In this document: piece after piece, positions 1 to 40,148 of the stretch
Layout of the letters: each line of letters begins with the position of its first letter
How positions within the stretch are numbered: position 1 is the stretch's first letter
Assembly: GCA_001797275.1 (NCBI GenBank)
Contig: MGOY01000045.1
Location: 1 to 49,004 of the forward strand
Direction: 5' to 3'
From: Clostridiales bacterium GWF2_38_85
GTDB taxonomy: Bacteria > Bacillota > Clostridia > Oscillospirales > CAG-382
Length of the DNA: 49,004 nucleotides
Position numbers and translations under genes: made by a program
The notes under the pieces: model-generated
What the model was told of the DNA's origin: nothing
Database searches by the model: none
Seen by the model: the letters and a program-made list of their open reading frames with translations, nothing else

Positions 1-40
1 CAGACCAATTACACTCTTATTATTGGCTTAAACAACAAGC

Positions 41-76
41 ATGATACTTCAAATTTTCGCTACGCCGAAGTATCAT
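41..76. other. 10-bp inverted repeat upstream of the NYN gene
   Basis: ATGATACTTC and its exact reverse complement GAAGTATCAT face each other across a 16-base loop, just ahead of the ribosome binding site at 91-98. No T-run follows the second arm, so a terminator is unlikely. It could be an operator or the end of a repeat; function unknown. Confidence 0.4.
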
Positions 77-106
77 AATCTTATAGTAGCAAAGGAGGAG
101 TAGTGT

Positions 107-895
107 ATCAGTTTATTTAAAAAAGATAAGAATCCGTTATCAGGGAAACCGAAAAGAGCGGTTGCATTTGTTGATTATGAGCATTGGTATATTTCGTTAT
201 ACAGAAACTATGGAATTCGGCCAAATATCGGACTTTGGTTTGATGAAATGAAAAAGCGGGTAAATCTAACCGAAGCCATATTCTTTGCAGATTTCTCACA
301 TCAGAGCCTGGCTGATGAAATAAGACGAATCAGACTATTTTCTAATAAAATCGTCGATACAAGAAGCACAAGCGGCAATGTTAAAAAAGACTTTACAGAC
401 TTTATTATACTTGACCATATTTATCAAAAAGCATTGTCATCCGACGATATTGATGTATTTATATTATTGACCGGTGACGGACATTTCAGTTCAGTTGTAT
501 CATTCCTAAAAAACATTTATTCAAAAGAAGTCGGTATATATGGAGTAACAAATTCATTTTCAAGACAGCTGCGTGAAACCGCAAGCTGGAGCATAGAGCT
601 TCCGTTTGCAGATGAAATAACCGACAGATATAACAAGCTGGTGTTCGACAGCATTATAGAATATGAAAAGAAAGCACCGGGACAGGTAGCAACGCTTACA
701 AAGATAACCGAAATAGCAAACAGCAAACAAAATGTATCAAACAATGAACTTAATAATACAATTAATAAGCTGACGGAAAGCGGTTATTTAACCTTAAGAC
801 GGATCGGTATGAAAATGAAAAACCAGGAAAACGCTTTGTTTGTTGATTGGAACAAATTAGAGAAGGATGAAATTTATTCGAAAGGAAAGGCATAG
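107..895 (+). CDS. NYN-domain (LabA/DUF88-like) putative ribonuclease, apparent ATC start
   Basis: Predicted 262-residue protein of the NYN family, PIN-like metal-dependent nucleases or RNA-binding proteins. The fold's acidic residues are visible: D23 in VDYEHW, D95 and D98 in KDFTDF, and D124 in TGDGHF. About residues 190-240 look like a winged-helix tail. The first ATG in frame is at 248, but starting there would remove the first strand and D23. Upstream the frame stays open to a TAG at 101, and it contains no ATG, GTG or TTG. A strong ribosome binding site, AAAGGAGG (91-98), sits 8 bases before ATC (107), which opens the sequence [M]SLFKKDKNPL. I infer that ATC replaces an ancestral ATG, by mutation, read error or genuine weak initiation. 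The gene runs toward a small lipoprotein gene 12 bases downstream. Domain call firm; substrate unknown. Confidence 0.82.
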   Translation: MSLFKKDKNPLSGKPKRAVAFVDYEHWYISLYRNYGIRPNIGLWFDEMKKRVNLTEAIFFADFSHQSLADEIRRIRLFSNKIVDTRSTSGNVKKDFTDFIILDHIYQKALSSDDIDVFILLTGDGHFSSVVSFLKNIYSKEVGIYGVTNSFSRQLRETASWSIELPFADEITDRYNKLVFDSIIEYEKKAPGQVATLTKITEIANSKQNVSNNELNNTINKLTESGYLTLRRIGMKMKNQENALFVDWNKLEKDEIYSKGKA

Positions 896-907
896 GAACA
901 TAATTAT

Positions 908-1303
908 ATGAGAAAAGCATCGGTTATATTTATTGTAATATCAATTGTTCTGTTGCTTGCTTCCTGCAGCAGCTCTGCACCTGTTGCAAAAATTTACGGA
1001 TACGAAAATGGCGAATTAACGACGTTATATAGAAATGTTACTGCTGAAAATGAAGAATTTGTTATAGAATTGATTAATAATAAAACTCCACAGGGTTATG
1101 CATCAGGTCAGGAAAAACCAAATTTTGCGATAGTATATAACAGCGGTACTGAAGGCGAGTACACATATTTGATTATGGCTGACCTTGAAACTGATGTAAT
1201 TACTTATATAACCGATTCTTATGATGAAACAATAGCAGCCATGTTATACAGTTCCTATACTACAGCATTGGATTTTTACGATTTTATTTCAACAGATAAG
1301 TAA
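908..1303 (+). CDS. Small lipoprotein of unknown function
   Basis: 131 residues. A hydrophobic signal segment (residues 5-18) ends in a lipobox-like LLASC with the cysteine at about 20, so the product should be exported and lipid-anchored. The rest is acidic, with no motif I recognise. It follows the NYN gene by 12 bases and the pair ends at a strong terminator (1307-1343), so the two are probably co-transcribed. No function is proposed. Confidence 0.72.
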   Translation: MRKASVIFIVISIVLLLASCSSSAPVAKIYGYENGELTTLYRNVTAENEEFVIELINNKTPQGYASGQEKPNFAIVYNSGTEGEYTYLIMADLETDVITYITDSYDETIAAMLYSSYTTALDFYDFISTDK

Positions 1304-1306
1304 ATC

Positions 1307-1343
1307 AATTCCGGAATGATTCAGTTCATTCCGGAATTTTTTT
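1307..1343 (+). terminator. Rho-independent terminator after the NYN/lipoprotein pair
   Basis: A perfect 13-bp stem (AATTCCGGAATGA at 1307-1319 with TCATTCCGGAATT at 1326-1338) closes a 6-base loop and runs into seven T residues. It starts just after the lipoprotein stop codon. Confidence 0.9.
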
Positions 1344-1353
1344 GAACATATAA

Positions 1354-1809
1354 CTATTCGACATAAAGTTTGTAATTAGACAAAATATCTTGAAGCTTTT
1401 CAAATCCTGATTTTATTCGATAATCTACTGCTCGTTTTGTAATCCCGAGTATTTTAGAAATATCCTTCGAAGAATAATTTGAATAATACTTAAGAATAAT
1501 AGGAAGACATTCAGATTTAGGTAATTTATTTAATGCTTTATAAATATCATTTTCTATTTGCTTTGCAATATAAACATTTTCGGGATTACCTTCGTCAGTT
1601 ATAAATTCTTCAAAATATTCAATATTTCCATCATCAGCTCCGATTAATGAACTGAACTGTATTTCATGTTAAAAAAACTTTTTATCTCTATCCGCTATAT
1701 TCCATTCTGTTCTTCTGTATGTATTATAAACATTTTCTGTAACTTCAATATTTATATAACTATTAGTTAATGTATTGAAAATATTTAGTATGTATATATT
1801 TTTATCTAT
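1354..1809 (-). pseudogene. Sigma-70-family factor, inactivated (ATA start, internal TAA)
   Basis: Read on the minus strand, one 152-codon frame shows an RNA polymerase sigma factor of about 150 residues. Its C-terminal part (about residues 107-147) is a region-4 helix-turn-helix, with the stretch SSKDISKILGITKRAVDYRI. Two lesions stop it being a working gene. The codon at the proper distance (7 bases) from a perfect GGAGG (1817-1821) is ATA (1807-1809). Codon 47 is an in-frame TAA (1669-1671). The rest of the frame is intact, so both could be single-base changes. No usable internal start follows the stop codon in frame. The promoter specificity of the parent factor is unknown. The neighbouring phage-type lysis genes suggest an accessory origin. 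Confidence 0.75.
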
Positions 1810-1930
1810 TTGTTTTCCTCCAATATTTTAATTTTCTAAATTAAAATAAAAAGAATTATGGATATTCAGCACTATAATAAAACCATATAAGCATATAACA
1901 TCCTTTCAATTTTGTAAAAACAAAAAGAAA

Positions 1931-2014
1931 GGGAAAATATAGGCTCTATGTGAAGAAAAACACGTAGGAATTAAGAATACTTACGCATTCAAATCACCAG
2001 ACTATATTTTTCCC
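1931..2014 (-). other. Candidate structured RNA or attenuator upstream of the sigma pseudogene
   Basis: GGGAAAATATAG (1931-1942) pairs with CTATATTTTTCCC (2002-2014) apart from one extra T. Inside lie two smaller helices, GTG/CAC (1950-1963) and a 9-bp imperfect stem (about 1964-1984). Read on the minus strand the closing stem is followed by T-rich sequence, as in an attenuator. I cannot match it to a known riboswitch class. The remainder of the 1830-2180 gap is AT-rich, with nothing else I can name. Confidence 0.35.
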
Positions 2015-2180
2015 ATTTCCACCCATATCAATAAACTTCAACATGCTAAGACTAGTCATGCTACAAATCGGAATTATTCGACATATGTAACCAATTATAT
2101 ATAGTAAATATTAATATATAAACTTTATATCAATATATAATAAGTTAATAATACAAATATTTCTTTGATGTGTAATAATA

Positions 2181-2216
2181 AAGGAGAGAGTCGGTTATTT
2201 AAAGGACTCTCTCCTT
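2181..2216 (-). terminator. Terminator hairpin after the lysis cassette
   Basis: AAGGAGAGAGTC (2181-2192) pairs perfectly with GACTCTCTCCTT (2205-2216). On the minus strand it lies 22 bases past the amidase stop codon and runs into TTTATTATTA, a weak but plausible T tract. Confidence 0.7.
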
Positions 2217-2237
2217 AAATGTGTTTATAAATTTCTT

Positions 2238-3035
2238 TTAAACATTATAAGGGAAGATATATGTTCCATTAACTATATTTTGCGCCATTGCTTGATCCGA
2301 ATAATCCACATAGCCATCAAAGGTCATATCAGCAGTCATACGCTGATCGTCTGGTTCACCATATAACAAGTTTTCTGTCATAATCATGATTTCATTGACA
2401 TCACTTTGATCAACCATACCATTTCCATTTATATCACCTTTTTTATGCTTTCGACCGGCATATTGACCGATTGTATAAGCTTCAATCCTTGCAAGTTTTT
2501 GAAGGTGTTCATCACTCAAAAGCCATGTGGATACACCATAATTAGTATGAAAACCATGCTCTAAAATATAATATAAGGGACAACCTGCAGCTCTTGCACC
2601 ACGCAATTCTAAATATGCTTCATAATTTCCATACTCACTTTTTAATGAATACAACTGGTATTCGCCAGGTATATCCATACCTCGAGATATATTTTTACAA
2701 AGTTTTGTGCCTAAAACTGATGAATTATTAAAATTATCATATGAATGTATAACTACAACTCTCCTTGTTGAAGGACTGTTATCAATAGCATTACTATGTA
2801 ATGATATATATAGGTCATAATCACCAGCGGAATAACCTCTATCATAAGGAGCTGGATTAGTGTTTATATCGGTTCTTGTAGTGTCAACTTCAAACCCATA
2901 ACGTTCAAGCTCGGTTTTAAGAAATCCTTGTAATTTCCATGCCATTGCACTTTCATAATAAGCTGTATTAGCTCCTTGATTGTAATAATTAGAGTAGTGA
3001 CCAGCATTAAGCATGATTCTGTTAATAGTTGGCAT
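2238..3035 (-). CDS. N-acetylmuramoyl-L-alanine amidase (Amidase_3) with C-terminal dockerin
   Basis: 265 residues. Residues 5-193 form an Amidase_3 zinc amidase, which cuts the bond between N-acetylmuramic acid and the stem peptide. Zinc ligands H13 (NAGH), E28 and H80 (SLHSNA) and the catalytic E159 (ILEHGFHTN) are present. Residues 200-258 are a type I dockerin with two calcium loops: D201/N203/N205/D212, and a second one reading DMTFDGYVDYSD. There is no signal peptide. The ribosome binding site AAAGGAA precedes ATG. The gene is last in a three-gene block with a holin-like and a phage-type membrane protein, so I read it as an endolysin that needs a holin to leave the cell. The dockerin sits where a cell-wall-binding domain would be expected. 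Enzyme class firm; phage origin inferred from order. Confidence 0.9.
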   Translation of the reverse strand: MPTINRIMLNAGHYSNYYNQGANTAYYESAMAWKLQGFLKTELERYGFEVDTTRTDINTNPAPYDRGYSAGDYDLYISLHSNAIDNSPSTRRVVVIHSYDNFNNSSVLGTKLCKNISRGMDIPGEYQLYSLKSEYGNYEAYLELRGARAAGCPLYYILEHGFHTNYGVSTWLLSDEHLQKLARIEAYTIGQYAGRKHKKGDINGNGMVDQSDVNEIMIMTENLLYGEPDDQRMTADMTFDGYVDYSDQAMAQNIVNGTYIFPYNV

Positions 3036-3078
3036 AATATTAATTCCTTTCTTTATAAAACATAAATGATAAATGAAT

Positions 3079-3339
3079 CTATTTATTTATAGTATTGATA
3101 TAATTATTTGTACTCTCAGTCTGAGAAAGTATAGAAGTTGATATTCTTGTAGAAGCAAAATCAACCGCTCCTTCAGTAAGAATATAAGCAACAGCAGCTA
3201 CAACAGTAAGTACTAAGCTCCATATATTAACATCACCTATTCCTATACTGATAAAATATGAAGTAAGACCTGATATAATTGTAATTACAGTTATCCAAAA
3301 TTTTCTGCTTGATAATTTTGTTTTCAAATTAAATTGCAT
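3079..3339 (-). CDS. Holin-like small membrane protein
   Basis: 86 residues with a short basic N-terminus and two hydrophobic segments (about residues 14-34 and 38-58), then a polar tail. Size, topology and the place between a one-helix phage protein and an endolysin match phage holins, which form inner-membrane lesions that release the lysin. A good ribosome binding site (AAAGGTAA) precedes ATG. It lies 43 bases upstream of the amidase and 6 bases downstream of the previous gene, so the three are surely one transcript. The exact holin family cannot be named by eye. Confidence 0.72.
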   Translation of the reverse strand: MQFNLKTKLSSRKFWITVITIISGLTSYFISIGIGDVNIWSLVLTVVAAVAYILTEGAVDFASTRISTSILSQTESTNNYINTINK

Positions 3340-3345
3340 AATAAA

Positions 3346-3669
3346 TTACCTTTCCTTTGAATACAAATTTTCAATTCCTAACTCTGCTAGAAAATTAATT
3401 TGAATGTCTTTTATTTTCTGAGAATAAGAAAGAGCTGATGTAAGTTTTCCATTATGTTTGCCAGTTTGGATAGCTTCTGCAGCAGCTTCGCTTAAAGCAA
3501 ACGCAGCTCCCAATCCTTGAATAATATACAATTCATTTTTTATTCGAGCATTTTCACGTTCTTGACTATCTTTTTCAACTTTATCTATACTTCTTTTTAG
3601 TATCCAACAAAAAAAGCCTGTCAGTGATGTTGGAATGCCCATTATTAAAATGAGTTGCAAAAACGACAT
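3346..3669 (-). CDS. Phage lysis-cassette membrane protein of unknown function
   Basis: 107 residues. One N-terminal transmembrane segment (residues 4-24) is followed by a charged helix and a conserved-looking stretch around GLGAAFALSEAAAEAIQTGK. From memory, proteins of this shape often stand directly upstream of holin and amidase genes in clostridial prophages and are sometimes mislabelled as kinases. No kinase motif is present here. It is the first gene of the cassette, with GAAAGGAAA ahead of ATG. A role as antiholin or lysis accessory is only a guess. Confidence 0.68.
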   Translation of the reverse strand: MSFLQLILIMGIPTSLTGFFCWILKRSIDKVEKDSQERENARIKNELYIIQGLGAAFALSEAAAEAIQTGKHNGKLTSALSYSQKIKDIQINFLAELGIENLYSKER

Positions 3670-3807
3670 TTCAAATTTTCCTTTCGATAAAATAGATTTA
3701 TATTATCTCATTAGTATAAGGGAAGATAAAATTAAAATGGGAAATATATATATCCTTGACAAAATATAATATATAATAAAGGCAATTAAGCAGAAAGGAT
3801 ATAATTT

Positions 3808-4419
3808 ATGAAAAAGATTATTATTTTTCTTATTACACTAAGCATGGTTATTATAATGTTTGGATGTGAAACAACACAAAATGAAAATTCAAAAACTGAT
3901 TTATCTGATAACAGTAAGGAGCAATCAGATATTTCTAGTAACACAGAAAGCAATGAACAGAGTATAATAGACGATTCGTCTATAAACGAGAATAGTGATA
4001 TGGAAACTTCAGTTGACGAATCACTACCTGAAGATGCTCCTATAGCAAACTTCTACATTCCAAATTCAGAAGATTATGACAGTTATGATATAATAAGTGA
4101 TAAATATGATGGCACAATAGAAGGATTAATTTCAAAGCTGATAAAACTTAAGGGACTACCTGAAAATATAAAAACAATTTCATTTGAAATAAAGGATGAC
4201 AATATTGCCTATATTGATTTATCTAAAGAGTTTAGTGAATCAATGACAGGCTCAATGAGAGAAAGGCAATTAGTTATAGCTTTGGTCAACACAATAATAG
4301 ATTGTTATGATGTAGAAGCAGTAAGTTATACTGTGGAGGGGAATATTATTGAAGATGGTCAGTTAGAACATGATAAACCGGTGCCCTTCATTAATGATAG
4401 CGGTAATGTATATAATTAA
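3808..4419 (+). CDS. GerMN-domain lipoprotein
   Basis: 203 residues: signal peptide with lipobox IMFGC (cysteine 20), a Ser/Asn/Asp/Glu-rich linker (about 21-78), then a GerMN domain (about 85-190). The domain is recognised from AYIDLSKEF, the GSMRERQLVIALVNTI helix and the final strand ending VEGNIIEDGQLE. GerMN domains occur in the germination/sporulation protein GerM and in peptidoglycan-associated lipoproteins of Gram-positives, and probably bind other proteins or cell wall. The product should sit on the outer face of the membrane. The gene stands alone, with an AGAAAGGA site before ATG and a terminator at 4496-4522. Family moderately sure; exact role open. Confidence 0.78.
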   Translation: MKKIIIFLITLSMVIIMFGCETTQNENSKTDLSDNSKEQSDISSNTESNEQSIIDDSSINENSDMETSVDESLPEDAPIANFYIPNSEDYDSYDIISDKYDGTIEGLISKLIKLKGLPENIKTISFEIKDDNIAYIDLSKEFSESMTGSMRERQLVIALVNTIIDCYDVEAVSYTVEGNIIEDGQLEHDKPVPFINDSGNVYN

Positions 4420-4495
4420 TGGTGAAGCTGAAGATACAGGGCAAAATGTTTATAATATTGCAAATAAAAGAATATTATAAGTAACTAAAGTTAAT

Positions 4496-4522
4496 CCCAG
4501 AACTAAATGTTCTGGGCTTTTT
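4496..4522 (+). terminator. Rho-independent terminator
   Basis: CCCAGAAC (4496-4503) and GTTCTGGG (4509-4516) form a perfect 8-bp stem with a 5-base loop. C and five T residues follow. It closes the GerMN lipoprotein transcript and insulates the pst operon. Confidence 0.9.
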
Positions 4523-4532
4523 ATAAGCAATT

Positions 4533-4596
4533 TTTAACTTTACCTCGATTTAACATAACTCTGCTTTTTCAATTTACATATCTGTTGTATTATGAT
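4533..4596 (+). promoter_or_regulatory. Candidate Pho-box promoter of the pst operon
   Basis: TTTAAC (4533), TTTACC (4539), TTTAAC (4549) and TTTACA (4573) resemble the TTAACA-type half-sites used by PhoP in Firmicutes, although the spacing is not a regular 11 bases. A -10-like TATGAT lies at 4591-4596, with no good -35, as expected for an activated promoter. The call rests mostly on the downstream genes being a phosphate operon. Confidence 0.35.
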
Positions 4597-4644
4597 ATTG
4601 TCAATTGGAAATAATAAATAATAAACAAACAGGAGATTAATAAC

Positions 4645-5586
4645 ATGAAGAAACTAATTACATTGTTTTTATCAATGATTATGGCAGCAACAATGCTGTT
4701 CGGCTGTTCAGAAAATTACGGCAAAAATGAATCCGCAGCATCCGGCGTTTCAGAAGCTTCGACTACATCAACGACATCAACAGCTTCAGATTTCAAAAAT
4801 GACACAGAAATAGCTGTTATCTCACGCGAAGAAGGTTCGGGAACACGCGGTGCGTTTATCGAATTATTCGGCATTGAGAAGAAAGACGACAACGGCGAAA
4901 AAGTTGACTACACAACCGTCGAAGCGGATATAACAAACAACACAAATGTTATGATGACAACTGTCGCAGGTAACAAATATGCAATCGGTTACATCTCACT
5001 CGGTTCGCTCAACAATACTGTAAAAGCAGTTAAAATTAATGGAATTGCAGCAACTGTTGAAAACATAAAGAACGGAACATATGAAATTTCCAGACCGTTC
5101 AATATCGCAACCAAAGAAGGACTCAGCGATGCAGCACAGGATTTTATCGATTATATCCTTAGCAGTAACGGACAGACTGTAATTGAAGCTGCCGGTTATA
5201 TCAGTGCATCAGATAGTGCTGCTTATGCAGGAAGCAAGCCCAGCGGAACAATTAAAATAGCAGGCTCCTCCTCAGTAACTCCGGTTATGGAAAAGCTTAA
5301 GGAAGCTTATTTGAAAATCAACACAAATGCAACAATTGAAATCCAACAGAGCGACTCCACTACAGGTATGAACTCAGCAAAAGACGGTATTTGCGATATC
5401 GGAATGGCATCAAGAGAGCTGAAGGACAGCGAAATAGCTGCAGGACTTACACCTCAGGTTATAGCAATGGACGGCATCGCAGTTATAGTTAATAATGACA
5501 ATCCGGTAAACGATTTAACAAAAGAACAGGTTGAAAAAATATTCACAGGCGAAACCACAGAATGGTTTGATGTTATTACTGAATAA
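4645..5586 (+). CDS. pstS: Phosphate ABC transporter substrate-binding lipoprotein PstS, domain order permuted
   Basis: 313 residues with a lipobox (LFGC, cysteine 21), so exported and membrane-tethered; it captures phosphate for PstCAB. All PstS landmarks occur, but in swapped order. The segment that is usually C-terminal comes first: SREEGSGTRGAF, then AIGYISLGSL and GTYEISRPF. The segment that is usually N-terminal comes second: GTIKIAGSSSVTPVMEKL, QSDSTTGM, IGMASRELKDSE, AIVNNDNP-like sequence and EKIFTGETTEWFDV at the very end. Both phosphate-loop motifs are intact, so binding should be preserved. A Ser/Thr-rich linker (residues 30-50) follows the lipobox. Good ribosome binding site (AGGAGA) before ATG; first gene of the operon. 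Confidence 0.93.
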   Translation: MKKLITLFLSMIMAATMLFGCSENYGKNESAASGVSEASTTSTTSTASDFKNDTEIAVISREEGSGTRGAFIELFGIEKKDDNGEKVDYTTVEADITNNTNVMMTTVAGNKYAIGYISLGSLNNTVKAVKINGIAATVENIKNGTYEISRPFNIATKEGLSDAAQDFIDYILSSNGQTVIEAAGYISASDSAAYAGSKPSGTIKIAGSSSVTPVMEKLKEAYLKINTNATIEIQQSDSTTGMNSAKDGICDIGMASRELKDSEIAAGLTPQVIAMDGIAVIVNNDNPVNDLTKEQVEKIFTGETTEWFDVITE

Positions 5587-5648
5587 AACTACTTTCCATA
5601 CAACAAATTCTCCGAAATTAATGTATGTACTTTGATAACCCGCATGGG

Positions 5649-5666
5649 AAGCCGCAATAGCGGCTT
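5649..5666 (+). terminator. Intercistronic hairpin between pstS and pstC
   Basis: AAGCCGC (5649-5655) and GCGGCTT (5660-5666) form a perfect 7-bp GC-rich stem with a 4-base loop. It is followed by TCTGTGTCTGTT rather than a clean T-run. It probably acts as a partial terminator or RNA stabiliser that makes binding protein more abundant than permease, a common pst arrangement. Confidence 0.55.
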
Positions 5667-5706
5667 TCTGTGTCTGTTCGAAATGAAAAGGATAATTAAT
5701 TGATAT

Positions 5707-6558
5707 ATGAAGCTTAATAAAGAAAAAATCATGAGAGTTGTATTTCTTGTTGCCGCAAGCGTTAATATACTTGCGGTGGCTCTCATTTGTATATTTTTAT
5801 TTGTTAACGGTGTTCCGGCAATGTTCAAAATCGGAATCTGGAATTTTTTCAGCGGAACAACATGGAGACCGAGTAATGATATATATGGAATCCTTCCGAT
5901 GATTCTCGGCAGCCTTTATGTTACAGCAGGAGCGATTATACTTGGTGTTCCGATCGGGTTGCTTACAGCAGTTTATATGGCTAAATTTTGCCCGAAAAGA
6001 ATTTATAAGCCTTTGAAAAGAGCAGTTGAATTATTAGCTGGTATACCGTCTGTTGTGTACGGCTTTTTTGGGATGATCATTATTGTTCCCTTTATACGCA
6101 ATACCTTCGGCGGCAACGGAAGCAGTATGCTTGCTGCATCTATTATTCTTGCGATTATGATTTTACCTACTATAATCAATGTATCCGAATCATCAATCAG
6201 AGCAGTTCCCGCAAGCTATTACGAGGGCAGCCTTGCTCTCGGCTCAAGCCATGAAAGAAGCGTATTTTTTGCTGTTATACCTGCAGCAAAATCAGGCATA
6301 ATGACCGGTGTCATTCTCGGAATCGGCAGAGCAATCGGTGAAACTATGGCGGTGATAATGGTTGCGGGGAACCAGCCGAGATTACCTGACGGTATTCTAA
6401 AGGGACTGCGCACATTAACTGCAAATATTGTAATTGAGATGGGGTATGCCGCAGATCTGCACCGTGAGGCATTGATTGCAACAGCAGTTGTATTATTCGT
6501 CTTTATTCTCCTGATAAATCTGCTCTTCTCAATAATCAAAAGGAGAAATGCGACATGA
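5707..6558 (+). CDS. pstC: Phosphate ABC transporter permease PstC
   Basis: 283 residues with about six transmembrane helices, forming half of the phosphate channel. The cytoplasmic EAA loop that docks on PstB is visible around EGSLALGSSHERSVFFAVIP (residues 173-192), followed by the AIGETMAVIMVAGN permease signature. An in-frame TGA directly upstream fixes the ATG as start. Its ribosome binding site (AAAGGA, 5687-5692) is unusually far away at 14 bases, so translation may be modest. Its stop codon overlaps the pstA start (ATGA at 6555-6558), which implies coupled translation. Confidence 0.95.
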   Translation: MKLNKEKIMRVVFLVAASVNILAVALICIFLFVNGVPAMFKIGIWNFFSGTTWRPSNDIYGILPMILGSLYVTAGAIILGVPIGLLTAVYMAKFCPKRIYKPLKRAVELLAGIPSVVYGFFGMIIIVPFIRNTFGGNGSSMLAASIILAIMILPTIINVSESSIRAVPASYYEGSLALGSSHERSVFFAVIPAAKSGIMTGVILGIGRAIGETMAVIMVAGNQPRLPDGILKGLRTLTANIVIEMGYAADLHREALIATAVVLFVFILLINLLFSIIKRRNAT

Positions 6559-7430
6559 AAAATACAAATACAATAAATAAAATGCATTTCAATCAGAAGT
6601 TGAGAATGTACAAAAAGAATCCATTATCATTTTTCCTGCTTACGATTACAAATTTAGCTGCTGCTATAACCGCTGCGGCAATCGTTTTTATTGTTGGCTA
6701 TATATTGATAAAAGGAATACCGAATATCAAGCTTTCTTTGTTCGAGTGGAAATACAACACAACCAATGTTTCACTGATGCCGGCACTTATCAATACGCTG
6801 ATCATGACTTTTATGTCGTTGTTTATAGCAGCACCTATCGGTATTTTCGCAGCAATTTTTCTTGTTGAGTACACACGGAAGGGTGGCCGTTTTGTCCGGA
6901 TAATCAGGACAACCTCCGAAACGCTTGCCGGAATTCCTTCAATTGTGTACGGGCTTTTCGGGCTTCTGCTGTTTGTAACCGCTTTGGGGTGGGGATATTC
7001 GCTTCTTGCCGGTGCATTTACTCTGGCTATAATGATTCTGCCGCTTATAATGCGAACAACCGAAGAAGCATTGATGGCTGTTCCTGATACGTACAGAGAG
7101 GGTAGCTTCGGACTCGGTGCAGGCAAGCTGCGTACAGTATTCAAAATAGTACTTCCTTCAGCAATCCCTGGTATGCTTGCAGGTATTATTCTGTCAATCG
7201 GGCGAATTGTAGGAGAAACAGCCGCATTAATTTATACGGCAGGCACTGTCGCAGATGTGCCCGACAATCTTATGTCGTCGGGCAGAACATTGTCGGTTCA
7301 TATGTATGCGTTAACTAATGAGGGGTTATACACGAATCAGGCTTATGCAACAGCGGTCGCGCTTCTGGTTATTGTTATAACAATAAATTCGTTATCAGCC
7401 TATATTGCGAAAAAATTAATGAAAGCCTGA
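6555..7430 (+). CDS. pstA: Phosphate ABC transporter permease PstA
   Basis: 291 residues with about six membrane helices, the partner permease of PstC. Typical sequences include [17 protein letters not shown], the EAA loop near [20 protein letters not shown] (about residues 182-201) and [15 protein letters not shown]. The start overlaps the pstC stop by four bases, and pstB follows after 16 bases with its own AAAGGGG site. This is the transporter PstA, not the c-di-AMP receptor sometimes given the same name, which is at 13116. Confidence 0.95.
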
Positions 7431-7446
7431 AATTGAAAGGGGAAAT

Positions 7447-8196
7447 ATGGATAAATTTCAAAGCAACAACCTGAATTTGTTTTACGGCGATTTTCAGGCA
7501 CTAAAAAATATAAATTTTGTAATAAGCACAAATGAAATAACAGCTTGTATCGGACCTTCGGGCTGCGGCAAGTCCACTTTTTTGAAGACCTTGAACAGAA
7601 TGAACGATCTGGTTGAAGGTTGCAGGATAACCGGCGAAGTTTTGCTCGACGGCGAACAAATTTACGGTGATATGGATGTTAACCTGCTTAGAAAAAGAGT
7701 AGGTATGGTATTTCAAAAACCGAATCCGTTTCCGATGAGCGTTTACGACAACGTTGCTTATGGTCCAAGAACACACGGGGTTCATTCCAAAGTGCAGCTT
7801 GATGATGTAGTTGAAAAATCACTGCGAGATTCAGCAATGTGGGATGAGGTCAAGGACAGATTAAAAAAGAGTGCACTCGGTCTGTCAGGAGGTCAACAGC
7901 AAAGGCTTTGCATTGCACGCGCATTAGCGGTTAAGCCTGATGTTTTACTTATGGATGAGCCAACAAGCGCATTGGATCCGATTTCAACTTCTAAAATAGA
8001 AGATCTTGCACTTGAATTAAAAAAAGAGTATACTATAGTTATAGTTACACATAATATGCAGCAGGCTGTACGTATTTCGGATAAAACTGCATTTTTTCTG
8101 CTTGGTGACTTAATCGAAAGCGGAGAAACCGAACGCATTTTTTCATTCCCCAAAGATAAACGCACCGAAGATTATATTACCGGGAGGTTTGGATAA
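7447..8196 (+). CDS. pstB: Phosphate ABC transporter ATP-binding protein PstB
   Basis: 249 residues, the usual PstB length. Walker A is GPSGCGKST (residues 36-44), the Q-loop lies in [11 protein letters not shown], the signature is LSGGQQQR, Walker B is VLLMDEP, and the H-loop histidine is in VTHNMQQA. It hydrolyses ATP to drive phosphate import through PstCA at the inner face of the membrane. The ribosome binding site GAAAGGGG precedes ATG, and the stop codon shares one base with the phoU start (TAATG). Confidence 0.97.
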
Positions 8197-8849
8197 TGAG
8201 AAATAAATTTGATGAACAGCTTGAAAAGCTAAATAATGAATTGATTGCAATGGGTATGCTCTGCGAAAGCGCTATTGCGAATGCAGCAAAGAGTATAAGT
8301 ACCGGTAATCCCGAATACTTTAAAGCAATTAAATTAATGGAAACAGACATAGATCAGAAAGAACACGACATCGAATCACTTTGTATGAAGCTTCTTATGC
8401 AGCAACAACCTGTAGCAAAAGATTTGAGATTTATTTCCGCAGCTATGAAAATGATTACCGACATGGAAAGAATCGGTGACCAGGCAGTGGATATTGCAGA
8501 AATCATCGCAATGGGATATGTCAATGTCCACGATGACACTGTGCATATCGAGGATATGGCAAGAGCTACAATTAAAATGGTTACTGAGAGTATAGATGCA
8601 TTTGTAAAGCGTGATTTATTAATAGCACAGGCTGTTATAGAATACGATGATATTGTTGATGGACTTTTCAATAAGGTTAAGGGCGAGCTTGTCCAATATA
8701 TAAAATCCGAACACAATCACGGCGAGTTTGCGATTGATCTGTTGATGATTGCAAAATATTTTGAAAGAATCGGTGATCATGCCGTTAATATTGCTGAGTG
8801 GGTGCAGTTTGCAATCACAGGAAAGCATAAAGGAGAGGATGTACTTTGA
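8196..8849 (+). CDS. phoU: Phosphate signalling regulator PhoU
   Basis: 217 residues, all helical, made of two related three-helix repeats. The metal-binding-type motifs typical of PhoU are seen as MITDMERIGDQAVDIAE in the first repeat and KYFERIGDHAVNIAEWV in the second. PhoU links the transporter's state to the PhoR kinase and represses the regulon when phosphate is plentiful. It overlaps pstB by one base, and the TTG start of the response regulator lies within its last codons, so stoichiometry is probably coupled. Confidence 0.95.
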   Translation: MRNKFDEQLEKLNNELIAMGMLCESAIANAAKSISTGNPEYFKAIKLMETDIDQKEHDIESLCMKLLMQQQPVAKDLRFISAAMKMITDMERIGDQAVDIAEIIAMGYVNVHDDTVHIEDMARATIKMVTESIDAFVKRDLLIAQAVIEYDDIVDGLFNKVKGELVQYIKSEHNHGEFAIDLLMIAKYFERIGDHAVNIAEWVQFAITGKHKGEDVL

Positions 8850-9520
8850 TTTATTATCTTGAAGATGACAAAAACATCAGAGAACTTGTTGTTTACACTC
8901 TTAAGATGGCAGGCTTGGACGTAATCGGATATCCTAATGCCAATGTTTTTTGGAAAGCAGTCAAAGAGTCAATCCCTGAGTTGATTTTATTGGACATCAT
9001 GCTGCCCGATGCGGATGGGATCGATATACTCAAAAGATTGAGACAGAATCAAACATATGTAAATATACCGGTTATAATGGTTACAGCAAAGGGCGCTGAA
9101 TATGATAAGGTTGTCGGTCTTGACCTTGGAGCGGATGATTATATATCAAAACCTTTTGCAATGATGGAATTTGTTTCACGCGTCAAAGCAGTACTTAGAA
9201 GGACAGGAGCAAAAGCAAATATAACACAGCTTATCGCAAGCGGTGTATATTTAGATGCCGAGAAACATACGGTAACTGCAAACGGTGATGAAGTAATATT
9301 AACTTTAAAAGAATTTGAGCTTTTAAAAATGCTGATTGAAAATCAAGGGTTTGTTTTAACCAGAGATAAACTGTTGAACCAAATTTGGGGATATGATTTT
9401 GATGGTGAAACCAGAACTGTTGATGTACATATAAGATCGCTTAGATTGAAGCTGGGCAGCTGCGGAGATATAATTGAAACAATCCGTGGTGTCGGATATA
9501 AAGTATCAACAGGTAAATAA
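8846..9520 (+). CDS. phoP: OmpR/PhoB-type response regulator (PhoP-like), TTG start
   Basis: 224 residues. The receiver domain (1-115) has the acidic pair D7/D8, phosphoacceptor D50 (LLDIMLP), T80 (VMVTAK) and K102 (SKPF). A winged-helix DNA-binding domain (about 128-222) contains LTLKEFELLKML and TRDKLLNQIWGYDFDGETR. It should activate pst and other phosphate-starvation genes when phosphorylated. The start is TTG at 8846, four bases inside phoU, with AGGAGAGG upstream. The usual directly adjacent kinase gene is pushed 244 bases away by a structured island. Confidence 0.93.
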   Translation: MIYYLEDDKNIRELVVYTLKMAGLDVIGYPNANVFWKAVKESIPELILLDIMLPDADGIDILKRLRQNQTYVNIPVIMVTAKGAEYDKVVGLDLGADDYISKPFAMMEFVSRVKAVLRRTGAKANITQLIASGVYLDAEKHTVTANGDEVILTLKEFELLKMLIENQGFVLTRDKLLNQIWGYDFDGETRTVDVHIRSLRLKLGSCGDIIETIRGVGYKVSTGK

Positions 9521-9532
9521 GATATTAATAAT

Positions 9533-9691
9533 CGATTGTGAAACTATAGTTTCACAATCGGAACCGCCCAATAGGCGGAGTTTTCATTCGGTTCTAAAAC
9601 CTAACGAGGTTCCCGAACCGAATGTGCTCCCTTTGGTCGCTTTGAAGGTGTCTTTTCGATCGGGAAACCCGCCCGAGCGACGCAATTTTTT
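9533..9691. repeat. Structured GC-rich island between phoP and phoR
   Basis: Consecutive pairings fill this gap. (1) A 28-base perfect palindrome (9533-9560), as RNA a 12-bp stem CGATTGTGAAAC/GTTTCACAATCG with a TATA loop. (2) CCGCC/GGCGG (9564-9578). (3) CATTCGGTTC (9585-9594) with GAACCGAATG (9615-9624), enclosing AACC/GGTT. (4) GTCGC (9636-9640) with GCGAC (9677-9681), enclosing TCGGG/CCCGA, followed by six T residues. The island is richer in G and C than its neighbours and has no convincing coding content. It may be an inserted palindromic repeat or a transcription attenuator that lowers kinase output. Confidence 0.6.
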
Positions 9692-9764
9692 ATAATTTAA
9701 ACTTTTTCATGATAAAGCTTGAGTTTTGTAATTGTCTAAAGATATTAAGGGAAGGAACTTATAA

Positions 9765-11429
9765 ATGAAACGACGGATTTTTATTGGGATGAGTGTTTTA
9801 GCATTTATAACAGTTCTTATAACCTCGGTATTGATTATTACTGTCATGCTTAACCGACTTTTTGATTCGGTAAAAAAGGAAATCAAGAATGAGGCAGAAT
9901 ACATCAGTATAGCAATAAATGAATCAGAAATGGATTATCTGAATATCCTTGAACAATACGGGGAAGATAACAGAATATCTGTTATTGCACCTGACGGTAT
10001 TGTCATATATGATAACAAGGCTGACATAACGCTTTTAGAGAACCATAAAAATCGGAAGGAAGTTATTGAAGCACTGGCAGACGGGCAGGGCGATGCTGTC
10101 AGAATATCTGATTCGCTTGGCGAACAATCATATTATTATGCCGTGAAGCTCAATGACGGCAATGTGTTGCGTATTGCCAATACATCAAACAGTGCGATTA
10201 TTGTAATAACATCAATGATACCTTATTTTATGCTTGTTACATTGATCGGAACTATACTTGCCATGATTTTTACCCGACATTATACAAATTGGATTATTGT
10301 TCCGATAAACAATTTTAACCTTGAAAATCCGATGTCAAATGAAATATACGATGAATTGTCTCCCTTTATACGAAGGATAGAAAAACAGAATACTCAGATT
10401 GAACGTCATATTTCAACTCTTAAAGAGAAGCAGATTGAGATGTCACTTATAACAGGTAGTATGCGTGAAGGCTTGATTGTCTTGAATACAAAGCTGAGCG
10501 TTACTTTTATCAACGAGAGTGCAGCAAGATTGTTCTCAATAGATGCAGAAAGCGTAATAGGATTAAATATTCTCAATGTCTACAGATGCCTGGCATTAAA
10601 CACTGTTTCAGCTTCGGCATTAAATGGGATACATTCTGAGAATATTGTTGAAATTGAAAACAGACAATATCGGTTCATGGCAAGTCCGCTTCAATATGAT
10701 ACAGTAATCCGCGGTGTCGTTATACTTATTGTTGACGAGACAGATATAAGACTTGCAGAACAGCAAAGACGAGAATTTTCTGCAAATGTCTCGCATGAAC
10801 TAAAGACACCGCTAACATCAATTTCGGGCTATACTGAATTGCTCAGAAACAGGATGGTAAAAACAGAAGACATTCCTGAATTCGCAGATAGAATATACAA
10901 AGAATCTACAAGACTTATTTCATTGATCGAGGATATTATAAAACTGTCAAAGCTCGATGAAGGTATTGTCGGCGTACCTCATGAACCGGTTGATTTGCAT
11001 GAGCTTGCAATCGATATTGCAAACAGATTAAAAAGCCAGGCCGAAGCACGAGGTGTTTCTGTTGAAGTCAACGGTGACAGTGCTATAATTGTCGGCTCAA
11101 AACAAATTTTTGATGAAATTTTATATAACCTTTGTGATAATGCTATTAAATATAATATTAATAACGGTAAGGTTGAAATTAAAACAGAAAAAACTCAAAA
11201 AGGCATGGTACTGACAATATCAGATACCGGGATAGGTATTAGTAAAGAGGACCGAGAGCGGGTATTTGAACGCTTTTACAGGGTTGATAAAAGTCATTCC
11301 AAAAATATATCTGGGACTGGACTCGGACTGTCAATTGTCAAGCATGGAGTCAAATATCATAATGGTAGTATTGAGCTTGAAAGTGAAAAAGGGAAAGGTA
11401 CTAAGGTTATAATAACATTCCCCGAATAA
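9765..11429 (+). CDS. phoR: PhoR-type sensor histidine kinase
   Basis: 554 residues. Two membrane helices (about 7-29 and 146-169) bracket an extracytoplasmic domain of about 115 residues. A PAS-like region lies at about 225-325. The HisKA domain has phosphoacceptor H344 (ANVSHELKTPLTS). The ATPase domain has N-box NLCDNAIKYN (about 455), G1 DTGIGI (about 487) and G2 GTGLGLSIVKH (about 516). No clear HAMP domain is seen after the second helix. It should phosphorylate the PhoP-type regulator encoded upstream and be held in check by PhoU and the transporter. The AAGGGAAGGAA site gives strong independent initiation despite the island before it. The operon ends at 11438-11466. Confidence 0.92.
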   Translation: MKRRIFIGMSVLAFITVLITSVLIITVMLNRLFDSVKKEIKNEAEYISIAINESEMDYLNILEQYGEDNRISVIAPDGIVIYDNKADITLLENHKNRKEVIEALADGQGDAVRISDSLGEQSYYYAVKLNDGNVLRIANTSNSAIIVITSMIPYFMLVTLIGTILAMIFTRHYTNWIIVPINNFNLENPMSNEIYDELSPFIRRIEKQNTQIERHISTLKEKQIEMSLITGSMREGLIVLNTKLSVTFINESAARLFSIDAESVIGLNILNVYRCLALNTVSASALNGIHSENIVEIENRQYRFMASPLQYDTVIRGVVILIVDETDIRLAEQQRREFSANVSHELKTPLTSISGYTELLRNRMVKTEDIPEFADRIYKESTRLISLIEDIIKLSKLDEGIVGVPHEPVDLHELAIDIANRLKSQAEARGVSVEVNGDSAIIVGSKQIFDEILYNLCDNAIKYNINNGKVEIKTEKTQKGMVLTISDTGIGISKEDRERVFERFYRVDKSHSKNISGTGLGLSIVKHGVKYHNGSIELESEKGKGTKVIITFPE

Positions 11430-11437
11430 AAAATAAG

Positions 11438-11466
11438 AACCGGAGATTAGAGTCTCCGGTTTTTTT
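11438..11466. terminator. Bidirectional terminator between phoR and the GGDEF gene
   Basis: AACCGGAGA (11438-11446) pairs with TCTCCGGTT (11453-11461) around a 6-base loop. T-runs follow on both strands (11460-11466 on plus, TTCTTATTTTTT on minus). It lies between two convergent genes and should serve both; the minus-strand stop codon falls on its edge. Confidence 0.85.
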
Positions 11467-12634
11467 AGTATAATATTGTTGTAAATTGCGGTGTTGATGT
11501 TTCGTTGAATATCCGGTGTCCCATTTTACCGTTATGCTTAACTTCATAAAGCGCAGCATCGGCGTTTGATATTGCCTTGTCTATTGTAATAACAGTACCT
11601 TTTTCATTGATATAAATACCGGCACTTATTGTAACGAAATTATTTTCTTCATGGGCGTTGAATATGATTTTGGCATCATTTACGGCATTTATCAATGCTT
11701 CGGTTATGGAAGTGGTTTCATATGTAGTTTTATCAGGTAATATTACAAGAAATTCTTCTCCGCCGTATCTGCCTGTCATACCATTAACCGACTCAACCAT
11801 ATCATATAATATATTTGCGATCCGTTTCAGGCAGTAATCACCCATGACATGCCCGTTTGTATCATTATATTGTTTGAAGTTGTCGATATCTACAAAAATA
11901 CAGGATAAGTTTTGATTCTTATTTTTCAAATGCTCTTCGAAAAACTCCATTATCTTTTTTCTGTTTGGTATATTAGTCAAAAAGTCTTTATTTGCATAAT
12001 ATTCAAGAATCTTCTTTTGTTCTTCAGCTTTTGTATATACAATAAATTTTTTGTAACTTGAAACATTGTTTATAATTATGATTATTATTGATATTATTAC
12101 TGCATAAAGAGGAATTAAAGCAGTATGAAAAATATTGATACTTGATGGTGCATAATAATTACAGGTAAAAATATAAATACAATAACCGAAGATACAAAAA
12201 GAGCTGTGTAGCCACATATTCAGTCTCAGACACGTTGCGGAAAGCAGAGTATAAAACATAAATATGTATGGTGGCAGACCTATACTCATATCAACAGCAG
12301 AAAAAATCGATGCCCATATTAATAAAACAATGACAATTATAAGCTGAAAGCACTTACGATATTTTGGGTGTTTCAAATTGATATGTATAATAACGGTGTG
12401 GGCAATAAATATAAATATAAAAATTGAAGTAAGAATACTGTATATGTTAATTACGGGAGGATATGTTTTAAGCTTTACAGTATAATAATATGAAAAGGTA
12501 ATCCATATCAAGAATAGAAAATTAATCATAAAAATGAAAGCCTGATTTCTTTTTACTTTCCTATCCCAATAGCTTGCATTGCCGCATACTGACTTTGCAT
12601 AGGCTAACATATTATTTATTTTTTCCCTGGGCAA
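11465..12634 (-). CDS. Membrane-bound diguanylate cyclase (GGDEF domain)
   Basis: 389 residues. About six transmembrane helices fill residues 30-190 and a GGDEF domain follows (about 215-375). It makes c-di-GMP from two GTP. The active-site loop reads GRYGGEEF, a catalytically competent variant, with the metal aspartate in FVDIDNFKQYND. The RxxD product-inhibition site expected five residues before GGEEF is absent (VNGM there), so feedback by c-di-GMP is unlikely. The start is TTG at 12634, behind a strong AGGAGGTGA site. It stands alone between convergent phoR and the divergent darA block. The signal sensed by the membrane part is unknown. Confidence 0.9.
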   Translation of the reverse strand: MPREKINNMLAYAKSVCGNASYWDRKVKRNQAFIFMINFLFLIWITFSYYYTVKLKTYPPVINIYSILTSIFIFIFIAHTVIIHINLKHPKYRKCFQLIIVIVLLIWASIFSAVDMSIGLPPYIFMFYTLLSATCLRLNMWLHSSFCIFGYCIYIFTCNYYAPSSINIFHTALIPLYAVIISIIIIIINNVSSYKKFIVYTKAEEQKKILEYYANKDFLTNIPNRKKIMEFFEEHLKNKNQNLSCIFVDIDNFKQYNDTNGHVMGDYCLKRIANILYDMVESVNGMTGRYGGEEFLVILPDKTTYETTSITEALINAVNDAKIIFNAHEENNFVTISAGIYINEKGTVITIDKAISNADAALYEVKHNGKMGHRIFNETSTPQFTTILY

Positions 12635-39223: not shown

Positions 39224-40148
39224 ACGTTTCCGAATGTGTGTCGGATTGATTGAACATGTGAATGATGCGGTTCCTGAACCTTTTGAAATTGCGATAGCCA
39301 TAACCAATGCGTTTTAGCACCTTGATCTTATTGTTGCAGCCTTCGGTAAATCCGTTGGTGTACTCATGTAAAGTATACTATCAACTGTCGCTTTTTCTTC
39401 TGGAGATAGATATTCGTATTGCTTGGTAAGCAGTGTTTTTGAACGTTTGAACAACAGCCTGCTGTCTTTCCGGTATTTCTTCTGCTCTTCTTTCCGTACT
39501 GCTTCAAATGCCCAGAATACCTGCCTGATAAAGTGATATTTGTCAATAACATGATACGCATTTCTGAAGAATGTGTTTGATATGTTTGCATATGTGTCCC
39601 ACATATCACTGACAAAATGAGTTGTTTGGCTTCTGTCAAAACCCTCGAAATAGCTGACTAATTCGTGCTTATACCTTGTAGGCAGCACATCCAGAACTCT
39701 GCCGTTTTTAATGTCTGTTATGATACACTGGTACTTCTCTCCGCCTGTATCACCCTTGAATTCATCTATTCCTATTACCTCGGGCAATAGGCTGCGAGGG
39801 GTAATTTACAAGATCAAATATTCTGCTCACAGTGCTGTTCGAGAGGTTAACCTCTCGGCCGACTGACTTGAAGGTTCGTACCTCACGCAGCTTGTCGATG
39901 ACATAGGCTGACAGCCGATTCGTCATATGATGATAGTGGGGTAGCCATTCAATATGTTCAACAAAACGCTTGTTGCAGCTTGTACAATTGTATCGGCGTT
40001 TACGGAGTTTAATGACAACAAATTCACCGAATGCAGGTATATCCTTGATTTTCTGTGTACGGTAGTCATGGATAGTATTTGTCATACAGCCACAATGGGG
40101 ACATTTTTGCGCCTTTCGTTCAATCTCAGCGTGTATTACTTTCTTATA
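39222..40148 (-). pseudogene. ISL3-family transposase, truncated, frameshifted and internally deleted
   Basis: Three pieces of one DDE transposase are visible. Piece 1 (about 40148-39785) has the zinc finger CPHCGC followed by YNCTSCNKRF, and the DNA-binding part ending IFDLVNYP. Piece 2 (39784-about 39360), in another frame after a one-base shift near 39783, holds the catalytic core LPEVIGIDEFKG, VSDMWDTY and YHVIDKYHFIRQ. Piece 3 (about 39360-39222), again out of frame, carries the conserved end EYTNGFTEGCNNKIKVLKR and FRNRIIHMF. About 75 residues that normally separate pieces 2 and 3 are missing. The N-terminal 20 or so residues are also lost, and a TAG precedes them. It cannot make an active enzyme. 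Confidence 0.85.

Follow-up and report, generated by a model that had tools for sequence, protein, structure and literature searches.

Three adjacent genes on the minus strand of the window (the whole stretch of DNA that was analysed; 49,004 nucleotides, one complete contig of Clostridiales bacterium GWF2_38_85) encode a small membrane protein, a holin-like protein, and an amidase that ends in a dockerin (Table 1). The original prediction described them as a phage-type lysis cassette, and the reading frames and family matches agree with that description, the match of the holin being weak. A Shine-Dalgarno-like run stands upstream of the ATG of each ORF, and the G+C content of the cassette is 31.8%, against 36.9% for the window.

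Table 1. Features of the cassette and of the lysin that it encodes
Feature	Window positions	Strand	Basis
Membrane protein of phrog_9428, 107 aa	3346-3669	minus	ORF, PHROGs match
Holin-like protein, 86 aa	3079-3339	minus	ORF; weak family matches
Amidase_3 lysin with C-terminal dockerin, 265 aa	2238-3035	minus	ORF, Pfam, PHROGs, model
Amidase_3 catalytic domain, residues 7-183	2487-3017	minus	Pfam (E = 3e-12)
Dockerin domain, residues 199-253	2277-2441	minus	Dockerin_1 profile
Calcium loop 1, DINGNGMVDQSD, residues 201-212, canonical	2400-2435	minus	Direct reading
Calcium loop 2, DMTFDGYVDYSD, residues 236-247, Thr at loop position 3	2295-2330	minus	Direct reading
Likely terminator, inverted repeat (pair I11) with T-rich tail just past the lysin stop	2181-2216	minus	Repeat search, reading

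The left end of the contig lies 2.2 kb from the cassette, and an NYN-domain gene and two lipoprotein-like ORFs are found on that side. To the right the cassette adjoins a gene for a Germane-domain (sporulation and germination) protein, beyond which the ORFs read as an operon for phosphate transport and regulation. It had also been claimed that head, tail, and integrase genes are absent nearby, and none was recognised: the 48 window ORFs chosen for a PHROGs search (threshold 1e-5) matched 57 families, and among the 25 listed no name points to head, tail, packaging, or integrase functions (11 of these families lack a description, and the 32 weaker families stand outside the listing). A search of the source genome for one terminase family, phrog_15, returned no match. 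By this listing and this search, the cassette does not lie in a phage genome. The phosphate operon of a genome of the same genus (G001) lacks an adjoining cassette, and that genome shows no lysin match at 1e-8 and no cohesin.

Several further observations concern the surroundings. The NYN-domain gene (window region 100-895) is longer than its ORF (248-895); the frame that resembles the protein of G001 continues upstream as far as about base 110, but ATG, GTG, and TTG starts are all lacking before 248. One listed PHROGs transposase family fits an ISL3-type transposase ORF (39314-39787; 157 aa), which matches 144 of 240 family positions and is probably a fragment. In another genome (L062:1-6854; G013:C27) a tail-fibre-like gene, a phrog_9428 gene, a holin-like gene, and a gene for an amidase without a dockerin, arranged as in the window cassette, directly follow phoU-phoB-phoR-like genes; the window cassette adjoins its pst-pho operon (2238-11429 region) on the opposite side, and the resemblance may be chance. 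Direct repeats flanking the cassette (D1; 21 nt, 81%) look like chance and were rejected. The inverted repeat past the lysin stop is absent from the hits of a terminator scan, and a promoter scan stayed at shuffle level. There were no RNA families in window positions 1-12000 and no tRNA, and no defence-model match for the six proteins searched.

Proteins of the cassette

The lysin matches the phrog_435 endolysin family (3.5e-14). Direct reading finds His13, Glu28, His80, and Glu159, which we take to be the Amidase_3 catalytic residues from their known roles in the family; all four are invariant in the 18 rows of alignment A1 (window included). A structure model built from 24 aligned sequences (mean pLDDT 85) matches solved amidases in Foldseek, including the phage PSA endolysin (1xov) and CD27L (3qay); phmmer with the lysin found no solved chain at E <= 0.1. 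From its sequence, the protein is a putative peptidoglycan hydrolase with its catalytic residues in place. The N terminus, MPTINRIMLNAGH, reads as lacking a hydrophobic segment, which bears out the earlier statement that the lysin has no signal peptide.

The C-terminal domain had been called a complete type I dockerin. The calcium loops of such dockerins carry ligands at positions 1, 3, 5, 9, and 12; two loops with these ligand positions are found in the window lysin, the second deviating by the Thr at position 3, and the model places helices at residues 210-221 and 245-256. The description is slightly generous, since the domain is divergent; its score lies at the Pfam cut-off (Dockerin_1, 19.9 bits in the Pfam search and 23.0 bits in the genome search; gathering cut-off 22.9). 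When nine other lysin dockerins (A5, window excluded) were combined in a profile, it matched solved type I dockerins such as 2ccl, 1ohz, and 1daq; no dockerin chain occurs among 50 listed Foldseek matches of the lysin model, which are dominated by the amidase part. The domain resembles the type I dockerins of cellulosomes in having two 12-residue calcium loops with helices, and differs from them in its divergence and in that the enzyme which bears it is of phage type and has no signal peptide.

The matches of the holin-like protein to Phage_holin_1 (17.2 bits, below the cut-off of 22) and phrog_9987 (E = 0.0015) are both weak, and there is no NCBIfam match. By BLAST it is 31-40% identical (best E = 4e-9) to small ORFs that stand just before lysins in four viral contigs (L122, L125, L302, and L303), two of which are near-copies of each other. 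The 107-aa protein matches phrog_9428 at 1.6e-24, reads as having a hydrophobic N-terminal helix, and is modelled as helical at low confidence (pLDDT 68); its relatives adjoin lysis genes in L061, L062, and L256.

In PBSX the order of the lysis genes is xhlA-xhlB-xlyA. The window resembles such phage holin-endolysin cassettes in that a small membrane protein, a holin-like protein, and a signal-less amidase are encoded in one direction, and in the match of the lysin to phrog_435. It differs in that the Pfam results for the window include no XhlA family, no phage is recognised around the cassette, and a dockerin replaces the wall-binding domain that usually holds the C-terminal place of endolysins.

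A second comparison is with the wall hydrolases of ruminococcal cellulosomes, where a domain of peptidoglycan hydrolase type is likewise joined to a dockerin; PMC6403190 cites lysozyme activity for the R. champanellensis cellulosome as well as further dockerin hydrolases, and an NlpC/P60-XDoc protein, RflaF_05439, appears in PMC3573020. Eight Ruminococcus-type amidase-dockerin loci encode a hydrophobic, signal-peptide-like N-terminal segment, whereas the window lysin, by reading, lacks the signal peptide expected of a secreted cellulosomal wall hydrolase, and its gene adjoins a holin-like gene. Dockerin likeness in a phage is shared with gene 40 of Vibrio phage VvAW1, which is similar to a cellulosomal dockerin protein (PMC3558961), and with a dockerin-like tail protein of E. 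coli phage HSE2 (PMC5967307); the passages concerned in these two papers do not describe either as an endolysin.

Dockerin lysins in host genomes, prophages, and viral contigs

A lysin match at 1e-8 was obtained in 35 of 197 genomes, the source genome included. Within the family, 25 of 63 genomes combine Amidase_3 with a dockerin (17 of genus g10, six of genus g2, G025, and the window genome), and all of these except G061, which has one, carry both dockerin repeats. Among the best 80 of 238 relatives, the named contigs of the g10 group come from Oscillospiraceae and Clostridia assemblies, mostly of herbivore gut, and from Candidatus Coliplasma caballi. Gene names in the loci of these relatives are our reading of the sequences unless a family match is given.

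In genus g2 a holin stands directly beside the dockerin lysin in seven of seven loci, distributed over six genomes. All six genomes have this pair outside any prophage; the seventh locus is a prophage of G002. Of the six nonprophage loci, five have tepA-like genes within 5 kb and four have spoVFAB-like genes no more than 5.2 kb away; the cassette of G014 has gdhA in place of these neighbours. Host genes flank the cassette on both sides in G023, G031, G038, and G014, and in G042 the contig ends inside the holin. One or two further phage-type genes precede the holin in G002, G031, and G014, and in G036 phrog_19280, phrog_1009, and phrog_13256 precede the dockerin lysin, flanked by host-like genes. 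Of the 17 genomes of genus g10, 16 have aspartokinase- and/or yigZ-like genes in the vicinity of the lysin (within 2.2 kb in 13, at 3.4-7.8 kb in three), and none of five holin queries matches at these loci. The lysin of G025 and the second copy in G050 are near contig ends, with adjoining holin or hemolysin-type phage genes, and G059 has a partial extra copy.

The seven g2 lysins, the prophage copy included, are 63-73% identical in protein sequence (dN 0.19-0.34). Synonymous sites have reached saturation in 17 of 21 pairs, and dS is 1.1-3.1 in the remaining four; dN among the holins is 0.16-0.46. Saturated synonymous sites together with conserved proteins therefore indicate long maintenance and not decay, which argues for host use of the cassette in these relatives. 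For the window lysin itself there is no close relative outside a prophage.

Two side observations concern genomic position. In G002 (C35; L246 and L295) the stretch from the holin-lysin cassette to spoVFAB contains the prophage; sister species have only the cassette in this region, and the prophage may have used an existing cassette as a landing place. Genes like those for smpB, a thioesterase, and a recombinase occur near phage-type lysis genes in both G050 (g10; L057:3442-6323) and G014 (g2; L252:12334-14678), perhaps as a shared integration site.

The G002 prophage is apparently complete and of the contractile-tail type; PHROGs assigns to it genes for an integrase, terminase, portal, major head protein, sheath, tape measure, baseplate wedge, and tail fibre, and it ends in a holin and a dockerin lysin; the holins of this genome match Phage_holin_4_1 or TIGR01593. 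A 5.4-kb contig of a genome from another family (G153) encodes an Amidase_3-dockerin protein unlike the window lysin (137.2 and 50.6 bits), together with a phrog_9428 protein, a Hol44 holin, and the product of a phage-family gene without known function (phrog_13589). A viral contig (L312) encodes a CHAP endolysin with a dockerin; it is the only dockerin carrier among the 15 relatives examined from one scan with our own profile, the other 14 having none. The dockerins of this CHAP lysin and of the G002 prophage lysin score higher than that of the window lysin. From the G002 prophage, the phage-type module of G153, and the viral contig, it follows that phages carry dockerin lysins. The original prediction had taken the dockerin as a sign of recruitment by the host; the prophage around a holin and dockerin lysin in G002, and the dockerin endolysin on a viral contig, speak against this. 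Recruitment itself draws some support from the relatives, in the g2 cassettes outside prophages and the g10 lysins near the same host genes.

A further viral contig (L309) has an ORF whose product terminates in a dockerin (2.5e-14) immediately ahead of a holin gene (phrog_297, 1.1e-6); no family is matched by the catalytic part of that ORF. Our own profile detected no dockerin in any of the best 80 among 180 viral relatives of A1; the window lysin and a g10 lysin had no match in 50,697 phage records, and viral contigs yielded no match to the window lysin or to the g2 alignment. Two dockerin-only matches of the g2 prophage lysin in phage records were set aside as host DNA because the ORFs read as host secreted dockerin proteins near pyruvate kinase or tRNA nucleotidyltransferase. 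Two other candidates were left uncounted: a dockerin-like stretch (3e-8) near the N terminus of a 1080-aa viral-contig protein (L310:5833-9072), and an ORF on a 179-kb viral contig that reads as CHAP-like, after which comes a dockerin-like match in a different frame (L311:5503-6150), perhaps a frameshifted lysin.

The closest rows to the window lysin in the amidase trees are lysins without a dockerin; the nearest (L148) is 49% identical, has another C terminus, and by reading lies in a tail-gene-like context. A first tree of 160 rows, in which long branches came together, gave six dockerin changes, of which five were forced. For a second tree nine loci, mostly long-branched, were left out; its 84 rows (35 with a dockerin and 49 without, chosen from those available) gave five changes, only two of them forced. 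Since this tree rejects neither a single clade of the window with 15 g10 rows (p-AU 0.29) nor one of all 35 dockerin rows (p-AU 0.08), we dropped the claim that the window lysin gained its dockerin independently. The CHAP fusion is better evidence of repeated gain; repeated fusion is suggested by catalytic domains that are unlike, namely CHAP in L312 and the part without a family in L309.

Possible cohesin partners

Cohesin matches occur in 110 of the 197 genomes of the order that were searched. The source genome has one, scoring at the cut-off (24.1 bits; G000 C2:8551-8895), in an ORF of 497 aa, membrane-anchored by reading, that adjoins a dockerin gene, and three dockerin matches in total. 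At the usual recognition positions, the dockerin beside this cohesin differs from that of the window. The genome barely provides a candidate cohesin partner for the lysin, and the single candidate sits beside a different dockerin gene. Each g10 or g2 genome that carries the lysin shows 15-92 dockerin matches. For R. bromii, calcium-dependent binding of a dockerin to cells is described (PMC5814915).

Cohesin presence does not separate lysin-bearing from other genomes of the family, with matches in 23 of 25 genomes (24 of 25 in another search) and in 30 of 38, respectively (Fisher p = 0.29). When all 197 genomes are taken, with G153 added, the counts are 24 of 26 with the lysin and 86 of 171 without (p = 2.9e-5), an association that kinship may explain.

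Origin and possible role

We consider the unit in the window to be probably an orphan lysis cassette of phage origin whose lysin uses the dockerin as a surface-retention domain. On this reading dockerin-tipped lysins are a feature of the phages of this group, and the window would hold one orphan copy; this replaces the reading in which the host added the dockerin. In the mechanism that we propose, the holin, with help of the phrog_9428 membrane protein, would open the membrane; the amidase would leave the cytoplasm and cut peptidoglycan; and the dockerin would fold in the calcium-rich surroundings outside the cell. The folded domain is predicted to hold the enzyme on surface-displayed cohesins, in the role of the wall-binding domain of other endolysins. 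Endolysin binding domains are known to keep the enzyme on debris. In the window, the cassette may serve regulated lysis by the host or may be a remnant.

As a plain remnant, the cassette would be what is left of a prophage after decay or excision, namely its lysis end, without a host function and with a dockerin that came from the phage. This is rather unlikely, while still deserving serious weight: a prophage with a dockerin lysin is known in the relative G002, the G+C content of the cassette departs from that of the window, the same-genus genome has no lysin, and the phrog_15 terminase search of the source genome was negative. The intact state of all three ORFs, with their ribosome sites and likely terminator, tells against decay, as does the long maintenance of comparable cassettes in relatives. 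Bacillus CwlC, a signal-less mother-cell amidase released at the end of sporulation, offers another model, in which the window amidase would be freed at that stage with the holin aiding its exit. The adjoining Germane-domain gene and the proximity of four of six g2 cassettes to spoVFAB-like genes fit this idea, as does SpoIVA, present in 56 of 63 family genomes including that of the window; being nearly universal in the family, SpoIVA does not discriminate, and its presence shows only that the source organism may sporulate. With g10 copies lying near other genes, and as we know of no role for a dockerin in mother-cell lysis, we regard the idea as improbable.

Holin and lysin pairs also export protein cargo in type 10 secretion of the TcdE-like kind, and a holin and lysin outside a prophage are what such systems have; the dockerin would then guide the lysin or its cargo to the scaffold. 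The holin of the G002 prophage matches the NCBIfam family "toxin secretion/phage lysis holin," but this name also covers ordinary phage holins, and the window holin does not match it. No obvious gene for a signal-less cargo adjoins the window cassette, where the neighbouring NYN-domain and lipoprotein-like ORFs were looked at, and export seems to us very improbable. Slightly less credible still is a weapon against neighbours, in which lysed producers would release an amidase that docks on competitors displaying cohesins. A dockerin could give such an enzyme a choice of target, and cohesins are widespread in the order by the counts above; the producer cells would die, however, and no immunity gene was recognised beside the cassette.

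Beyond the window, the orphan-cassette reading extends to a broader proposal that we put forward tentatively, as possible and short of probable: dockerins would be a recurrent surface-binding domain of phage endolysins, fused to catalytic domains of unlike kinds in phages of cohesin-bearing bacteria, with the cellulosome scaffold of the host as anchor, and several hosts would have domesticated the unit for programmed lysis, perhaps releasing or re-anchoring scaffold-bound enzymes. Full-text searches, with subscription papers and preprints outside them, showed no dockerin-tipped endolysin in the literature covered. The cohesin-dockerin pairing is the known glue of cellulosomes. If phages do place their lysins by this pairing, it would be a new kind of endolysin targeting, would predict the hosts on which such enzymes act, and would provide a tight, calcium-switched pair that is directly usable; the cassettes outside prophages would represent controlled self-lysis in fibre-degrading bacteria.
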